DNA from: Saccharibacter sp. 17.LH.SD
GTDB lineage: Bacteria > Pseudomonadota > Alphaproteobacteria > Acetobacterales > Acetobacteraceae
Assembly (NCBI RefSeq): GCF_009834805.1
Contig: NZ_WVHO01000009.1
Coordinates: 64,501-128,500, forward strand
Length of the DNA stretch: 64,000 bases
Reading direction: 5' to 3'
Shown: positions 49,845-62,804 of the stretch, piece by piece
Layout: every line of letters starts with the position of its first letter
How positions within the stretch are numbered: position 1 is the stretch's first letter
Position numbers and translations under genes: made by a program
Notes under the pieces: model-generated
Seen by the model: only the letters and a program-made list of their open reading frames with translations
What the model was told of the DNA's origin: nothing
Database searches by the model: none

Positions 49845-52800
49845 TTGATGCAGATTCGGAGCGTCAAAATAAGCAAAAAACGGCTATTGAAGTCGCTGAT
49901 GATGCACAGCGTTTAGCGTCGGACCCCTGTGCATCGGTCTTTGTGTCTGCCTCAGCGGGATCAGGAAAAACAAAGCTGCTGATTGACCGTCTGTTACGGT
50001 TAATGCTGCCTATTGAGGGCGTGGATGATGAGGGGCGCCCAACTCTCGTGAAAGGGTCTGATCCAGCGCGTATTTTATGCCTGACCTACACAAAAGCGGC
50101 CGCGGCAGAAATGGCCAATCGTTTGCAGAATAGGTTGGGGCAGTGGGTTTCTCTAGCGGATGAAAAATTGGGGGAAGAGCTGAGGGCCCTCAACGTGCCT
50201 GATACGGCTGCGACACGTGCGCAAGCACGGGGATTGTTTTTGCGTGTATTGGATCTCCCTGGTGGGCTTCGTGTTGAGACCATTCACGCTTTTTGTCAGT
50301 CTTTATTACGGCGTTTCCCATTAGAGGCAGTGTTAGATCCGCATTTTTCCCTTATGGAGGAGACCGATAGCCTTTTAGCGTTGCGTCAAGCTCTTGAGCA
50401 GGAGCTAGGTGAGAATGGAGACCATGCCACGACGCTGGCAAGTATTTCGTCATTTGATGACGTCGTGCAGCGTATTACGGGCTTTAATGAGAAGATTGGA
50501 CGTTTACAGTCCCTTTTGGCGCTTTGGAAGCAAAGCCCTCAGCATGTGTTGGCAGCCTATAAGCATCTTTTGAAAACGGGCAATGACGATACGGCTACGC
50601 TTGAGCGGGAAATATGCTCTCCCCCGAAAGAAGAGTTTTTGCGGGAAGGTCTCCAAGCCGCATGGCCCGATATGTCCGAAAGTGGGCGCCGGAGCGGTCA
50701 AGTTTTGTTGGATTGCTTGGCACAACCGAAAGATGAACGTCGGGATGAGGTTTTTAGGACCATTTTTCTGAAGGTCAGTGACGGACGGCCCCGTAAAATG
50801 AATTCCATGGTCGGGAAAAAGGCTCAATCTCTTGTTCCAGAATTGTTGGAGGCTTTGGAGCAGGAAGCCCAGCGGCAATGGGAATTGGAAGAGCAACGAC
50901 GCGCACAAAAACTTTTGGTGGTTAATTATGCTCTTTTAGGCCTCGCGGCCCCGGTGTTGTCTCGTTTTTATGACGAGAAGAAACGGCGTGGTGTCGTTGA
51001 TTATAACGATCTTATTGCGCGAACACGTGATTTGTTACGTGATCCAGGGGTCGCCTGGGTGATGTATAAGCTGGATGGTGGGATTGACCATCTTTTGCTT
51101 GATGAAGTGCAGGATACGTCTGCCTTACAATGGGAGATTGCTGGGGCATTAACTAGTGACTTTTTTTCAGGGGAAGGACGCCATCAGCTCGGGCAAAGGC
51201 CGCGAACGGTTTTTGCTGTGGGAGACTTTAAGCAGTCTATTTATAGCTTCCAGGGTGCTGAGCCAGAGCAGTTTCATGCGTGGCGCCGTGAATTTGCGCG
51301 GCGGGTGAATGCGGCTGGGCTTCTTTGGAGAGAGCCGGAGTTGAATGTCTCTTTCCGCTCTGTTTCACCAGTGCTGCAGTTGGTTGATTGTGTATTTAAA
51401 AGCGATATCGCCGCACATGGACTTCGTGAGGTGGGGCGACGCTCATTGACAGCTCATATTTCAGCGCGTCCAGGGGAAGGGGGGCGTGTCGAAATATGGC
51501 CTCTTGTCCCGTCAAAAGAACATGAAAATGAACAGACACAGGATGGAAGTGTCATAAGCCCTTGGCGTGCACCACAACGCAATGAAGACCAGCGGAGTGC
51601 ACCACAACGTTTGGCCGAGGCGTTGGCTGAATGGATCGCAGGGAAAATTGGTATTCCTTTACAAAAAGGACAGTTACCGTTGCGTGCGGGGGACGTTCTG
51701 ATACTCGTTCCCAAACGATCTGCTTTTTTACGAGCGCTTATTCGTGCGTTGAAGCTGAGGCGTATCCCAGTGGTCAGTTTTATTCGCTCTGGCTTAACGG
51801 AACAGGTCGCTGTGCGCGATTTGATGACGCTGTGTGCCGTTTTGCTTTTACCACAAGATGATCTGAGCCTCGCCAGTTTTTTGACGTCCCCTTTAGGAGG
51901 GATCAGTGATGATTCTCTCATGGATTTGGTGACACTGAATGGAAAGAAGGCCCTTTTAGGGGCAGACGGTAAGTCTTTATGGTCTGTCTTACGAGAGCGG
52001 TATTCAGAGCGAGAAGAGTGGACGCAAGCCTGGGAGCATCTTTCTGCACTGTATCGGCGGGTGGATTACGACACACCTTACACGATTTTAGTTCAGGCAT
52101 TGGGACCTCAGGGAGGGAGGGCGCGTTTATTGGCTCGATTGGGCCCCGAGGCTGCAGAACCTGTTGATGAGTTGCTCAGCGCAGCCCTAACGTATGAATC
52201 CCAACATCCACCATCGCTTCAAGGTTTCCTTCATTGGTTAGAAGCGAGCCAGACAACGACACGTCGGGAGCCTGAGAGTGACATAGATGCCGTACGAATC
52301 ATGACCGTCCATGGGTCAAAAGGGCTTCAGGCACGGTTAGTCATTCTGCCAGATACGACGTCGGCGATGGATCGCGATCGCGACGTGTTGTGGAGGAGGC
52401 AGGACGGTGGGGAGGATTTACCGCTTTGGGTTCCCCATAAGAATGATATGAGAACAACGCAAACCGATCTCTTCACGGGGGAAGCGGCAGAGCAACGGCG
52501 TGCTGAACGCAATCGCCTGCTTTATGTGGCTTTAACACGTGCGAGTGATTCGTTGGTTGTATGTGGTTGGGAGCCTTCTGGGCGCGGCGATATCGCTGAT
52601 ACAAGCTGGTACCAACAGTGTTGGGATGGATTTTCTCGATTAGACAACATCACGGCAGAGCCACTTGGACTGGGCTGGCCGGGGGATCGTTTGATTTTTG
52701 AAGCACCTGTTGAACGTCGGCAGAATTTATCCTCTTTGGGCATAGACGTTACGCCTCCCATAACATTGCCTTCATGGCTTGGCAGTGCGCCTGAATGGCA

Positions 52801-57001: not shown

Positions 57002-58003
57002 ATGTCAGATTCATCCACCCCTGTGCGGTATGATCTCCTTTGTGTTGGCAACGCCATTGTCGATATGTTGGCCTCAGTAACGGTTGATAAGGTGACGGAG
57101 TTGGGAGCGGTGCCTGGGAGTATGACTCTCATTGACACACCGACAATGGAGAATTTGCAGAAAACCATTACGGTGGAACATGTTGCAGGGGGCGGATCCG
57201 CTGCGAATACCGCCGTTGTCGCTGCACGGATGGGAATTCGCTCTGGATATCTTGGTAAAGTTGCCAAAGATCAAGCCGGAGATGATTTTACGGATGATTT
57301 GAAAGCACAGAAGATTGCTTTTCCGTCGCGTCCTTTGGAAGCATCTCATGGGAGTGATGTTATTCCAACGGCACGTTGCATTGTTTTGGTGACGCCTGAT
57401 GGGCAACGTACAATGTTCACATATTTGGGTGCGTGCGTTGAGTTTACGCCAGATGACGTACAAGAAGAAATTGTTGAGCAGTCAGCGGTAACATATCTGG
57501 AAGGGTATTTGTTTGACCGCCCACGTGCGCAAGAAGCGTTTCATCGGGCTGCTGAGCTTGCCCATAAAGCAGGGCGTAAAACGGCATTAACACTTTCTGA
57601 TACGTTTTGTGTGCAACGTCACCGTGATGCCTTCCGTCAATTAGTGGCGGAATCGATCGATATTCTCTTTGCTAATGAGGCGGAGATCCAGGCGCTTTAT
57701 GAAACAGAACGTTTGGATGATGCTCTCGTCCAAGCAGCACGTGATACGGCCCTTGTGGTTGTGACGCGGGGAGCAGCCGGGGCTGTTGTGCAGTCTGGCT
57801 CAGAGCGCTTTGATGTACTGACTGCGCCCGTGAAGGTCGTGGATACTACTGGAGCCGGTGATGCGTTTGCTGCAGGCTTCTTGGCGGGTTTTGCGCGTCA
57901 TAAATCCCTGAAGGAGTGCGCAGAACTTGGCAACCGTGCAGCTGGCTCGGTTATCACTCGTTTAGGGGCTCGTCCTAGTGAGGACTTTGATATAACGGTT
58001 TAA
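57002..58003 (+). CDS. PfkB-family kinase, adenosine kinase-like
   Basis: A 333-residue ribokinase-fold sugar/nucleoside kinase. It has DLLCVGNAIVDML, the PfkB segment GGGSAANTAVVAARMG, AFPSRP, and the anion-hole/catalytic motif VVDTTGAGDAFAAGFLAGF with the catalytic Asp. The N-terminus matches adenosine kinase-like members better than ribokinase or fructokinase, but the substrate is not proven. AGGAAAATT precedes the ATG. Confidence 0.9.
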   Translation: MSDSSTPVRYDLLCVGNAIVDMLASVTVDKVTELGAVPGSMTLIDTPTMENLQKTITVEHVAGGGSAANTAVVAARMGIRSGYLGKVAKDQAGDDFTDDLKAQKIAFPSRPLEASHGSDVIPTARCIVLVTPDGQRTMFTYLGACVEFTPDDVQEEIVEQSAVTYLEGYLFDRPRAQEAFHRAAELAHKAGRKTALTLSDTFCVQRHRDAFRQLVAESIDILFANEAEIQALYETERLDDALVQAARDTALVVVTRGAAGAVVQSGSERFDVLTAPVKVVDTTGAGDAFAAGFLAGFARHKSLKECAELGNRAAGSVITRLGARPSEDFDITV

Positions 58004-58020
58004 TATCAAAATAGGATGGT

Positions 58021-58066
58021 TTTCAGTGGGAAGGCATAGATATTTTGGTGCTGCTTCCCACTGAAA
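58021..58066. terminator. 13-bp hairpin between the kinase gene and hpnK
   Basis: TTTCAGTGGGAAG (58021-58033) pairs exactly with CTTCCCACTGAAA (58054-58066) across a 20-base loop. It is placed between convergent genes and probably ends both transcripts, although no long T run follows. Confidence 0.65.
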
Positions 58067-58071
58067 GGACT

Positions 58072-58911
58072 CTATAGATCACGCCACCCAATAGAATGGA
58101 TATGATTTTCTTCCAGGCAGTGGCGTGTTTCAGGGGCTATGAGGGCATTGAGTTCCCCTCGTTGGTCATAGCCAGGCATAAGCTGAGCCATTTGAGTGTT
58201 TTGGTGTGTCGCTGGGTGGAAATAAATCTCACTTGTTCCAGACGGAAGCTGTGGGAGTAGAGATTGAACTTTTTCTGGCGTCATATGGCCGGACCATCGA
58301 AGGCCGAAGCAATAGTGATTCGTTTTTATCCCGGCCAATCGGATTTGTGCGCGCAGTATATGCGTCCAATAGTGAAGTGCTCGATCCCCTAGGGAGGTTG
58401 CTTCGTTAAGCGGATTGGAAGGCTCATAAGGGGTACGCACAGCTTTTAAGCCATAATTGAGCCCAGTTTTAATCAGTAAATTTCCAATAGTGGGATGAAG
58501 ATGCATGTGTTTATGTGCATTGGCATGATCCAGTGATAAGCCGCTGAGAGAAAAAGCACGAAACTGAGCTTCAATTTCTCTTTTCATGGCTGAGCGTGCA
58601 TGGGGAGAGAAAAAATAGCGAATGCCAAGTTCTAATTGATTACGACCAAACCACCCTTGAGTGTCTGTAATGGCGGGGAGCTTTAAAATTGAATCGCCTT
58701 CAATGGTTACAAGATGGAGGCCGACCTTTAGATTAGGCATGCGTCGTGCGCGTTCGATCGCATCTTGAGCAGCCGGTGCTGCCACCATGAGGCTTGTTGT
58801 CGTTAAGACACCTTCACGATGTGCCTTTTCAATGGCTTCATTAACTTCAAGGCTCATCCCAAAATCATCGGCGGAGATGATGACGCGGCGCTGATGTGAC
58901 GGTAAGGCCAT
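58072..58911 (-). CDS. hpnK: Hopanoid biosynthesis deacetylase HpnK
   Basis: YdjC/ChbG-family deacetylase that removes acetyl from N-acetylglucosaminyl bacteriohopanetetrol. The metal-site segments are VIISADDFGMSLEVNEA and HANAHKHMHLHPTIGN, and LKVGLHLVTIEGDSIL is the family strand. The product has 279 residues. The ATG has no clear ribosome binding site. An intrinsic terminator separates it from hpnJ upstream, which suggests that its expression is lowered or separately controlled. Confidence 0.9.
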   Translation of the reverse strand: MALPSHQRRVIISADDFGMSLEVNEAIEKAHREGVLTTTSLMVAAPAAQDAIERARRMPNLKVGLHLVTIEGDSILKLPAITDTQGWFGRNQLELGIRYFFSPHARSAMKREIEAQFRAFSLSGLSLDHANAHKHMHLHPTIGNLLIKTGLNYGLKAVRTPYEPSNPLNEATSLGDRALHYWTHILRAQIRLAGIKTNHYCFGLRWSGHMTPEKVQSLLPQLPSGTSEIYFHPATHQNTQMAQLMPGYDQRGELNALIAPETRHCLEENHIHSIGWRDL

Positions 58912-58934
58912 AAGAGAACATATCCGTAAATAAT

Positions 58935-58964
58935 AAAGGGAATAGCTGATAAGCTATTCCCTTT
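58935..58964 (-). terminator. Intrinsic terminator between hpnJ and hpnK
   Basis: Read on the minus strand, AAAGGGAATAGCT (58964-58952) pairs perfectly with AGCTATTCCCTTT (58947-58935) across a four-base loop, followed by ATTATTTACGG. It starts 31 bases after the hpnJ stop, at the usual terminator distance. Confidence 0.8.
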
Positions 58965-58995
58965 GATGCAGCCCATAAACGTGATGGGGTTTTAA

Positions 58996-60420
58996 TTAGT
59001 TAGCGTGACGCTGGCGAAGGAACTGGAAGAACTCCACACCTTCACGAAGGCGACGTTTCATCATCTGAGGATCACGAATCATCTCGTTGACGATAGAAGC
59101 AATTTTTGACGGACGGAAATAAAATTCCCGGTAGAATGTTTCTACACTCTTGAAGATTTCTGTGTGTGACAGATGAGGGTAGTGAAGAGGAGCAATCTGC
59201 ACGCCATCATCATCAATCAGCTCAGCTTCGTCTTCGTTTAACCAGCCATTCTCGGAGGCCTGCTTATGCAAGGCGGTACCAGGATAAGGTGCCGCAAGAG
59301 AAACTTGCAATGTATGAGGGTTAATTTCCTTAGCGAACTCGATGCTTTCACGAATTGTTTCGCGTGTTTCGCCTGGGAGACCAACAATGAAGGTTCCGTG
59401 AATTTTGATACCCAGTTTATGGCAATTCTTCGTAAATTCACGTGCAACTTCAATGCGCATACCCTTCTTGATGTTGTGAAGGATCTGCTGATTTCCGCTT
59501 TCGTAACCGACGAGGAGCAAACGGAGCCCATTGTCACGCAATACTTTTAATGTGTTGTAGGGAACATTAGCTTTTGCGTTGCAAGACCATGTAACACCCA
59601 TCTTGCCAAGCTCACGCGCAATCGCTTCAGCACGAGGGAGATCATCGGTAAAGGTATCATCATCAAAGAAGAATTCTTTGACCTGAGGGAAGTATTGTTT
59701 TGCGAGTCGTACCTCTGCGGCCACATGTTCAGGGCTGCGTGTCCGGTAACGATGTCCCCCAACAGTCTGCGGCCAGAGGCAGAAGGTGCAGCGTGATTTG
59801 CAACCGCGGCCTGTATAGATGGAGATATAAGGGTGCTTTAGGTACCCAATGAAGTAATCTTCAATTTTAAGGTCCCGTTTGTACACTTCCGTCACAAAGG
59901 GGAGGCTGTCCATGTCTTCAATCATGGAACGGTCTTTGTTGGTGATAATCTCACCAGCGTCATTCCGCCAGGTAATACCGTCAACGTCGGCAAATGGCGT
60001 GCCTTCAGCAATTTCCTTAATGGTAAAATCGAATTCGTTACGTGCAACGAAGTCGATAGGGCTACCCTGAAGCAAGCTTTCGTTAGGTTGCACGGCTACT
60101 TTGGCGCCGACCATGCCAATTTTCAGTTTTGGATTGGCTTCTTTCAGCATCTTGGCGACTCGAACATCGGAGCTGAAAGAAGGGGTCGATGTATGAATGA
60201 TGACAAGGTCACGATTCTTAACATCTTCCAAAATAGGTCCCATGCCCATTTTGGCTGGTGGAGCATCGATCAGACGGGAGCCAGGAACAAGCGCCGCAGG
60301 CTGGGCGAGCCATGTTGGATACCAGAAAGAACGAATCTCTCGTTTTGCTTGGTAGCGTGATCCTGCACCACCATCAAAACCATCGAAGGAAGGGGGTTGT
60401 AGGAAAAGGGTTCTCATCAT
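58996..60420 (-). CDS. hpnJ: Hopanoid radical SAM enzyme HpnJ
   Basis: B12-binding/radical SAM enzyme needed for bacteriohopanetetrol cyclitol ether formation. The radical SAM triad is GRGCKSRCTFCLWPQ, with Cys 207, 211 and 214. The N-terminal Rossmann-like domain has the segment VIIHTSTPSFSSDVRVAKML, the later part has LLLVGYESGNQQIL and GTFIVGLPGETRET. The 474 residues fit. Its start overlaps hpnI by four bases (ATGA). Confidence 0.95.
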   Translation of the reverse strand: MMRTLFLQPPSFDGFDGGAGSRYQAKREIRSFWYPTWLAQPAALVPGSRLIDAPPAKMGMGPILEDVKNRDLVIIHTSTPSFSSDVRVAKMLKEANPKLKIGMVGAKVAVQPNESLLQGSPIDFVARNEFDFTIKEIAEGTPFADVDGITWRNDAGEIITNKDRSMIEDMDSLPFVTEVYKRDLKIEDYFIGYLKHPYISIYTGRGCKSRCTFCLWPQTVGGHRYRTRSPEHVAAEVRLAKQYFPQVKEFFFDDDTFTDDLPRAEAIARELGKMGVTWSCNAKANVPYNTLKVLRDNGLRLLLVGYESGNQQILHNIKKGMRIEVAREFTKNCHKLGIKIHGTFIVGLPGETRETIRESIEFAKEINPHTLQVSLAAPYPGTALHKQASENGWLNEDEAELIDDDGVQIAPLHYPHLSHTEIFKSVETFYREFYFRPSKIASIVNEMIRDPQMMKRRLREGVEFFQFLRQRHAN

Positions 60421-61682
60421 GATCGGACACTACTCCTGTTGATGTCTGACGTGTCGACGCCGTGCCCATGGACGCTCGGAGAGGAAGGGTCGTCGGCTGC
60501 GCGTGGTGTTCGACGACGGGACGCTGATTGTGTTTTGTTACGGTTGATATGGACTGTTCGGCCACGCCATGCAACGCGCGAGCCGCGCGCGCTGGCGATC
60601 ATGACGGCAGCAGATAGCCAATCTCGTAAAAGAATGTAAGGGGAAATGCTGGGTAGTGGGCATTTCGTCAAGCGGGAAATATGGCGAGTTGTTAAGCTGC
60701 GTACTAGCCATCCCCCAATTAGTAACAGCCACGCTTTCCGCGATTTAGGAGAAAGAATGACACTCAGTGTTGCCCAAACAAGTGGGAGTTGGAGGGATGA
60801 AAGAGCATAACCAAGAGGTTCAATGCTTCTTACCGTTCGCCCCCAACGAATCTCGTGCGCTAAAAGCTCCCCAAGAGTTTCCTCCGCAACGGTAGTTAAG
60901 CACAAAGTGGGAGCTAATGCGATAGTTCCGCCTTGGCGTACAATACGTTTTCCTAGTTCCGAATCATCAGCAAGATAATTGACGAGAGCATGGAAACCAC
61001 CAATGCGTTCAAGATTTTTCTTCGTAAGTGCCATGGTCGCGCCTAGGCAATCTTGCCGACCGAGAAGGCGAGACATCATAACACCCGGAAGAAAATTGCT
61101 GTTGATGCTATAGGCCCCTAATTGCCGGACAAGGCGTCGGTCTGCAGGGAGCCCGGCATAAAGCGTCGTGACAAGCTGCACATCAGGTTTAAGCAGTGTA
61201 GCAACGATGCGCCGGAGATAAGAAGGTTGAACATGAATATCGGAGTCCGCGATCACAAAAAGATCGTGCTGGCACACCGATTGCATGTTGACGAGGTTGC
61301 TTACCTTACGGTTTGGTCCGTGGTTGGTTGTATCTATGACAACTGAGACAGGCCGTTCCGGGAAGCGGGCGCGCAAGCGATCTATGATAGGCAGAGCCTT
61401 ATCATGAGGGTGCTGCACGCCAAAGATGAGCTCATAATTAGGATAATCTTGCTGGAAAAAGCTTTCAATGGCTTCTTCAAGAAGAGGCTCTTCCCCTGCG
61501 AGTGGTTTGAGTACGCTTACAGGAGGGCTGGTCTGAGGAGAGGCATCATGGGATGAAGATGCAGTTTCGCGTTCCATCCTACGGAAACGCGAAAGCAAGG
61601 TAACGCCGATGATGCCTTGAATATGGCCGGCAATCGATAAAAGGCCGCTAACGGCAGCTGCAAGTGTCGTCAATGCCGGCAT
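60417..61682 (-). CDS. hpnI: Hopanoid glycosyltransferase HpnI
   Basis: Family-2 glycosyltransferase that adds N-acetylglucosamine to bacteriohopanetetrol. One N-terminal membrane helix is followed by PVSVLKPLAGEEPLLEEAIE, the nucleotide-binding DSDIHVQPSYL (DxD-like), LADDSELGKRIVRQGG and EIRWGRTVR (the RW motif), then C-terminal membrane segments near 290-330. The last 40 residues are basic and serine-rich and look less conserved. It is coupled to hpnJ. Confidence 0.92.
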   Translation of the reverse strand: MPALTTLAAAVSGLLSIAGHIQGIIGVTLLSRFRRMERETASSSHDASPQTSPPVSVLKPLAGEEPLLEEAIESFFQQDYPNYELIFGVQHPHDKALPIIDRLRARFPERPVSVVIDTTNHGPNRKVSNLVNMQSVCQHDLFVIADSDIHVQPSYLRRIVATLLKPDVQLVTTLYAGLPADRRLVRQLGAYSINSNFLPGVMMSRLLGRQDCLGATMALTKKNLERIGGFHALVNYLADDSELGKRIVRQGGTIALAPTLCLTTVAEETLGELLAHEIRWGRTVRSIEPLGYALSSLQLPLVWATLSVILSPKSRKAWLLLIGGWLVRSLTTRHISRLTKCPLPSISPYILLRDWLSAAVMIASARGSRVAWRGRTVHINRNKTQSASRRRTPRAADDPSSPSVHGHGVDTSDINRSSVRS

Positions 61683-61797
61683 CGCTTACCGTGCTCCTTT
61701 GCTTTTTTCATCACAGCATGAGGAGAAAACTCCCGTGCTGTTTGCACAGGAGTCGTGTGGTGAAAGAAGACTCGGAGGGTAAAAGGCCATACAGTGA

Positions 61798-62469: not shown

Positions 62470-62804
62470 GCTATTTCTCCCATATGGTTTCGTACAAGTT
62501 TGCCGTCATCCAGCTGCCTTGTAACAGATGGAGACGCTCCGTGCTGTGTTAGATATGATACAGTCATGATGGCAATATGGTGTTTTGTCATTGAATGAAC
62601 AGTTACCAACGAGCTATATCAGCACATGAATTGCGTGGCGTTTGCCGTAGCTGGTGCTGCCATGGCCACGCGCAGTCCATATATTGGGCGTGGCTTTGGA
62701 AAATATAAAGAGGCAGTTTTCCGGTTTGGTCGCTGTGTGGAATTGTTGTCCCGACATGTCGGGGTGTGCTGGGCGTTGCCCCAGAGAGTGATCAGAGGAT
62801 TATA
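62470..62804. promoter_or_regulatory. 335-base divergent regulatory region between hpnM and hpnH
   Basis: No gene is supported. It holds a 14-bp palindrome CCCGACATGTCGGG at 62750-62763, 41 bases before the hpnH ATG, and GCGTGGC/GCCACGC (62633-62639 and 62665-62671). Promoters for both strands should lie here; a TATGAT-like element occurs near 62550. Confidence 0.55.

Follow-up and report, generated by a model that had tools for sequence, protein, structure and literature searches.

A predicted internal terminator between the hopanoid genes hpnJ and hpnK in Saccharibacter sp. 17.LH.SD and related acetic acid bacteria

Results and Discussion

The hairpin located between hpnJ and hpnK is probably an internal intrinsic (Rho-independent) terminator with partial read-through, which would lower hpnK relative to hpnI-hpnJ. 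The terminator reading is well supported by the sequence features described below, while partial read-through is suggested by the interruption of the U-tract together with the little room left for a promoter. According to this mechanism, a polymerase leaving hpnJ would make the stem, the interrupted U-tract would free part of the transcripts, and the remaining ones would continue into hpnK, leaving hpnK mRNA less abundant than hpnI-hpnJ mRNA. On this reading, the cell would need less HpnK than HpnJ. The stretch of DNA analysed here, referred to as the window, comprises 64,000 nucleotides of a 2.1 Mb genome available as 13 contigs, and all positions are given in its numbering.

Structure of the hairpin and its genomic setting

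The stem-loop occupies positions 58935-58964 of the minus strand and consists of 13 perfect pairs closed by the loop TATC, as supported by the sequence, the scan for terminator-like sites, folding and shuffled controls. Read along the minus strand, the order is AAAGGGAATAGCT-TATC-AGCTATTCCCTTT, followed directly 3' of the stem by the interrupted U-tract ATTATTTACG (58925-58934, minus strand; sequence and scan). All 13 pairs are Watson-Crick, only five of them being G-C, and the loop measures 4 nt. The perfect 13-bp stem with a short loop on the minus strand, described in the initial annotation, is borne out by both sequence and scan; the tail is T-rich, as it claimed, but interrupted, with 5 T in 8. 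As expected for an intrinsic terminator, the stem-loop is stable, the core reaching -14.4 to -16.9 kcal/mol depending on trimming, and it is accompanied by a U-rich tract, which, interrupted as it is, scores 4.7-5.3 with the A-T closing pairs opened. The distance of 31 nt from the hpnJ stop (58965-58995) agrees with the annotated one, whereas the hpnK ATG lies 23 nt from the hairpin (58912-58934), not 24.

The genes on both sides are well defined. The radical SAM protein gene hpnJ (58996-60420, minus strand; TIGR03471, 832.6 bits vs a cut-off of 577.6) precedes the hairpin, and the deacetylase gene hpnK (58072-58911, minus strand; TIGR03473, 377.3 vs 232.6 bits) follows it on the same strand, the two being separated by an 84-nt gap. 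The glycosyltransferase gene hpnI (60417-61682, minus strand; TIGR03472, 422.8 vs 310 bits) overlaps hpnJ by 4 nt. With respect to the curated NCBIfam cut-offs, HpnK, HpnJ, HpnI and HpnH score above and HpnM just below (157.4 vs 160.1 bits). A PfkB-type sugar kinase gene (57002-58003, plus strand), whose family matches lie below the curated cut-offs, is convergent with hpnK, an arrangement found in most of the 35 nearest loci defined below. Within 150 nt 3' of hpnK, 31 of these 35 loci contain no strict terminator-like site, and in most sampled Gluconobacter loci the gap between hpnK and the kinase gene is 25-39 nt. A second strict terminator-like hairpin is present in the hpnM-hpnI gap of the window (61729-61753, minus strand), 46 nt before hpnI, which places hpnI-hpnJ between two sites of this kind.

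It is unlikely that the hairpin arose by chance. Folding of the 96-nt region yields -25.0 kcal/mol, compared with -15.5 ± 2.8 kcal/mol for shuffled sequences (z -3.35), none of 200 being as good. When the 84-nt gap is shuffled 3000 times with its dinucleotides preserved, no perfect stem exceeds 9 pairs, and a strict terminator-like site (stem energy of -11 kcal/mol or lower, U score of 4 or more) appears on the strand of the hairpin in only five of the 3000. Between positions 50000 and 64000 of the window, the hairpin has the most pairs of all 28 terminator-like sites, shuffled sequences containing 14.4 such sites on average. A match in the scan is by itself no proof, because strict sites also occur in other same-strand gaps and in coding DNA: the 64-kb window holds 13, seven in gaps (at five places) and six in coding DNA, and three of its ten same-strand gaps of 40-200 bp contain one, the hpnM-hpnI gap included. 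A dispersed or REP-like repeat was considered and rejected, as a search of the organism's own genome (E of 1 or lower) matches nothing except the site, once on each strand. The hairpin belongs to no Rfam family by any match near threshold: three matches have an E of up to 1, each scoring far below the gathering cut-off, and the one to STnc380, which overlies the hairpin on the plus strand, reaches 20.8 vs a gathering score of 60 bits.

Occurrence among relatives

The position between hpnJ and hpnK was followed through the best 80 of 189 relatives of HpnK (L033-L112), among which the nearest named one is that of Saccharibacter floricola (76% identical). The 35 nearest loci (L033-L067) represent Saccharibacter, Gluconobacter, Bombella, Parasaccharibacter, Neokomagataea and their kin, and many are close relatives, so that the following counts are not independent. 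The gap is long in 29 of the 35, and in all 29 the hpnK-sense strand carries a hairpin followed by a U-rich tail, which the strict rule detects in 28 and only a looser rule in L034, whose bulged hairpin the strict scan missed. The remaining six have gaps of 12-15 nt and no hairpin. In the other 45 loci, mainly Acetobacter and Asaia, a strict site is found in only six, and together with the six nearest loci lacking both gap and hairpin this indicates that the hairpin is dispensable. Sorted into four classes, with L034 counted as having none, the 80 loci include 34 with stem and U-tract, three in which the U-tract follows after a few extra bases, 12 with a strong hairpin only (mostly Acetobacter) and 31 with none. 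In Asaia L081 and L107, as well as in L096 and L105, a junction hairpin includes the hpnJ stop and is accompanied by a short T-rich stretch, in a gap of only 23-24 nt.

The neighbouring gaps of the same loci behave differently. A strict sense site is present in none of the 78 readable hpnM-hpnI gaps, and in one of 79 hpnI-hpnJ gaps, the latter being a poor control because these genes overlap or nearly do so in most clade loci. The coding DNA of hpnM, hpnI, hpnJ and hpnK contains 11 strict sites on both strands in 315,993 bp. The looser scan detects hpnM-hpnI hairpins whose tail is weaker (U score 3.4-3.8) in L033, L034 and L035, which makes the contrast between the two gaps smaller within Saccharibacter; weak ones are also found in L074, L079, L088 and L111.

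The place of the hairpin is conserved while its sequence changes. Over 30 sequences (the 29 long-gap loci and the window), the distance from the hpnJ stop to the hairpin core is 28.3 ± 2.4 nt, whereas that from the core to the hpnK start ranges from 17 to 115 nt (42.9 ± 34.3 nt), with 17-38 nt in Saccharibacter and Gluconobacter and gaps of 88-115 nt after the hairpin in Bombella. Such a fixed spacing from the hpnJ stop is as expected for the end of an hpnJ transcript, and would be less so for an element of the hpnK leader. The stems themselves differ by genus: the window has GGGAATAGCT, many Gluconobacter have GGGGTCATGGC and many Bombella have GGCGGCC. In 11 Gluconobacter rows all 132 of 132 pair cells are intact; none of the pairs has changed on both sides, and the covariation score is equalled or exceeded in 183 of 500 shuffles. 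The case for conservation rests on the turnover between genera, because covariation within Gluconobacter is unusable as proof of structure. A cross-genus MAFFT alignment, in which the stems are out of register and some are cut by the coordinates used, was set aside. Taken together, anatomy, shuffled controls and positional conservation back the terminator proposed in the initial annotation, which is retained as a prediction.

In a quick tree of HpnJ and HpnK, the window groups with two Saccharibacter rows (support 95, SH-aLRT only). Its clade contains 36 rows, 30 with hairpin and U-tract (L034 being marked present by hand) and six without, which form two separate, fully supported groups, one of Neokomagataea and one of Bombella/Parasaccharibacter. 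Over the whole tree, the hairpin label changes at least seven times. A second sample comprised 40 genomes of the family with 39 genus codes, seven stretches having no clear hpnJ match; it overlaps the first, since at least five loci (L113, L115, L118, L119 and L121) seem to equal L071, L101, L080, L109 and L110. Among the 33 with hpnJ, the gap is shorter than 40 nt in 23 (21 without a hairpin, two with a hairpin lacking a U-tract), and the ten longer gaps include three with hairpin and U-tract, six with a hairpin only and one with none, although in two of these ten (713 and 1154 nt) the genes are probably not neighbours. The commoner state in this sample is a short gap with no hairpin. Judged from these patterns and not by a formal inference of direction, the hairpin looks derived.

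Alternative explanations

The hairpin could also be a complete terminator of hpnI-hpnJ, with hpnK forming a separate unit transcribed from a promoter of its own that lies within or across the gap. This is an unlikely explanation, though the most serious of the alternatives. The anchoring of the hairpin to the hpnJ stop and the 88-115 nt that follow it in Bombella fit such an arrangement, and in Gluconobacter oxydans the promoter consensus is lax (nAtnnn, ttGnnn) and short leaders are common (PMC5756330). The same paper maps 341 sub-operons from internal start sites in 571 operons, which makes a separate start for hpnK possible. The first letters of the U-tract in the window, TATTAT (58930-58935, minus strand), agree with a -10 hexamer in five of six places. 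On the other hand, the 17-38 nt between core and hpnK in Saccharibacter and Gluconobacter leave little space, a sigma-70 scan lists no promoter in the hpnJ-hpnK gap, and a promoter overlapping the hairpin would lack conservation, given the turnover of the hairpin sequence. A promoter 5' of the hairpin would meet the same terminator; at the end of hpnJ, four-fold sites in ten mixed sequences give no clear sign of an embedded one, the last 40 codons differing by 0.49 vs 0.48-0.62 elsewhere. The earlier suggestion that hpnK needs read-through is plausible, since no more than 17-38 nt separate the core from hpnK in these two genera, but a promoter overlapping the hairpin is possible as well.

An RNA-decay barrier or processing site that stabilises the hpnI-hpnJ mRNA, the unequal levels arising after transcription, is improbable. 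In E. coli, RNA structures are known to cause differential decay (PMC5927463), and the strong hairpins without a U-tract in 12 of the 80 loci would suit this role; in the clade of the window, however, a U-rich tail lies 3' of the stem on the hpnK-sense strand.

A regulated attenuator with an antiterminator or a ligand appears very improbable. The placement between genes of one pathway would suit it, and two Saccharibacter loci, L033 and L034, are able to form an outer helix around the hairpin, in which the nucleotides immediately following the hpnJ stop pair with others located 3' of the U-tract. This outer helix is, however, absent from the predicted fold of the window. A riboswitch or antiterminator was rejected on two grounds: in 13 of 13 sequences, the 5' arm can pair with the preceding 150 nt over no more than 6-8 nt, G-U pairs counted, and no Rfam aptamer match comes near the gathering score.

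Least credible of all is a role on the opposite strand, where the hairpin would terminate antisense transcription coming from the convergent kinase gene: although no strict terminator-like site lies in the gap between this gene and hpnK in the window (58004-58071, 68 bp) and a strict site occurs on that strand of the hpnJ-hpnK gap in 8 of the 35 clade loci, the hpnK-sense strand has one in 28, and the plus-strand stem of the window is followed by GATGCAGC, with no T-run.

Comparison with known systems

Internal terminators of Ruminiclostridium have long stems and interrupted U-tracts that pair with upstream A, and they end part of the transcripts (PMC9045158). Like those of the ABC importer operons of R. 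cellulolyticum, the hpnJ-hpnK element is a stem-loop with an interrupted U-tract between genes of a cluster, whose U can pair with A before the stem; in contrast, partial termination was demonstrated there by Northern blots, while the present hairpin is known from sequence alone and concerns other genes in another phylum (PMC9045158). In operons of Methanococcus maripaludis, internal termination likewise leads to unequal gene expression, although the machinery is archaeal and the sites were mapped by Term-seq (PMC10450193). The structures governing the decay of operon segments in E. coli also result in unequal transcript levels within one operon, but they act post-transcriptionally and generally lie in coding regions, unlike the intergenic hpnJ-hpnK hairpin with its U-rich tail (PMC5927463). 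Control by internal terminators is known as a kind, and the hpnJ-hpnK instance is new; the titles and abstracts of the open-licence literature yielded no report of this hairpin, and neither 'hopan' nor 'squalene' occurs in the main text of the papers on RNAseq and on mRNA decay in G. oxydans. A paper on ethanol stress in Zymomonas describes hpnI, hpnJ and hpnK as all up-regulated, which is neutral for the terminator reading.

Relation to hopanoid lipids

In the pathway as described in PMC12583986 after Schmerk et al. 2015, N-acetylglucosamine is attached by HpnI and deacetylated by HpnK, and the cyclitol ether is produced by HpnJ. The survey in PMC12583986, whose strain table contains no Saccharibacter in its Acetobacteraceae part, detected BHT N-acetylglucosamine in 11 of the 48 producing strains, where it accounts for 1-11%, and solely in species lacking BHT cyclitol ether; the compound is called primarily an intermediate. 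BHT glucosamine is still a dominant product in many strains with hpnI, hpnJ and hpnK, according to the same paper. The idea that the hairpin sets the ratio of acetylated to deacetylated head groups, put forward in the initial annotation, is therefore weak, as the survey does not suggest such a ratio. The proposal is safer, though still unproven, when restated as an effect on flux or on the balance between HpnK and HpnJ.

A broader proposal can be offered tentatively, with the balance of probability against it: acetic acid bacteria may have acquired internal terminators in the hpnJ-hpnK gap, perhaps on more than one occasion, and may maintain them at a constant spacing from the stop of hpnJ despite turnover of their sequence, as a selected device that would keep HpnK below HpnI and HpnJ and tune the flux from BHT glucosamine to the cyclitol ether. 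If the hairpin works as a partial terminator, head-group synthesis would have a built-in setting of the enzyme ratio that varies among close relatives. The presence of the hairpin in the sampled Gluconobacter and most Bombella, and its absence from Neokomagataea and a Bombella/Parasaccharibacter group, provide natural pairs for comparing HpnK dose with membrane lipids.

Further observations

Most loci have a weak hpnK ribosome-binding site whether or not a hairpin is present, and this feature decides nothing. A collection of plasmids contains 17 records with distant relatives of hpnJ. In the window, the divergent hpnM-hpnH gap harbours a stable hairpin (62665-62694, plus strand), 72 nt before the listed hpnH start.
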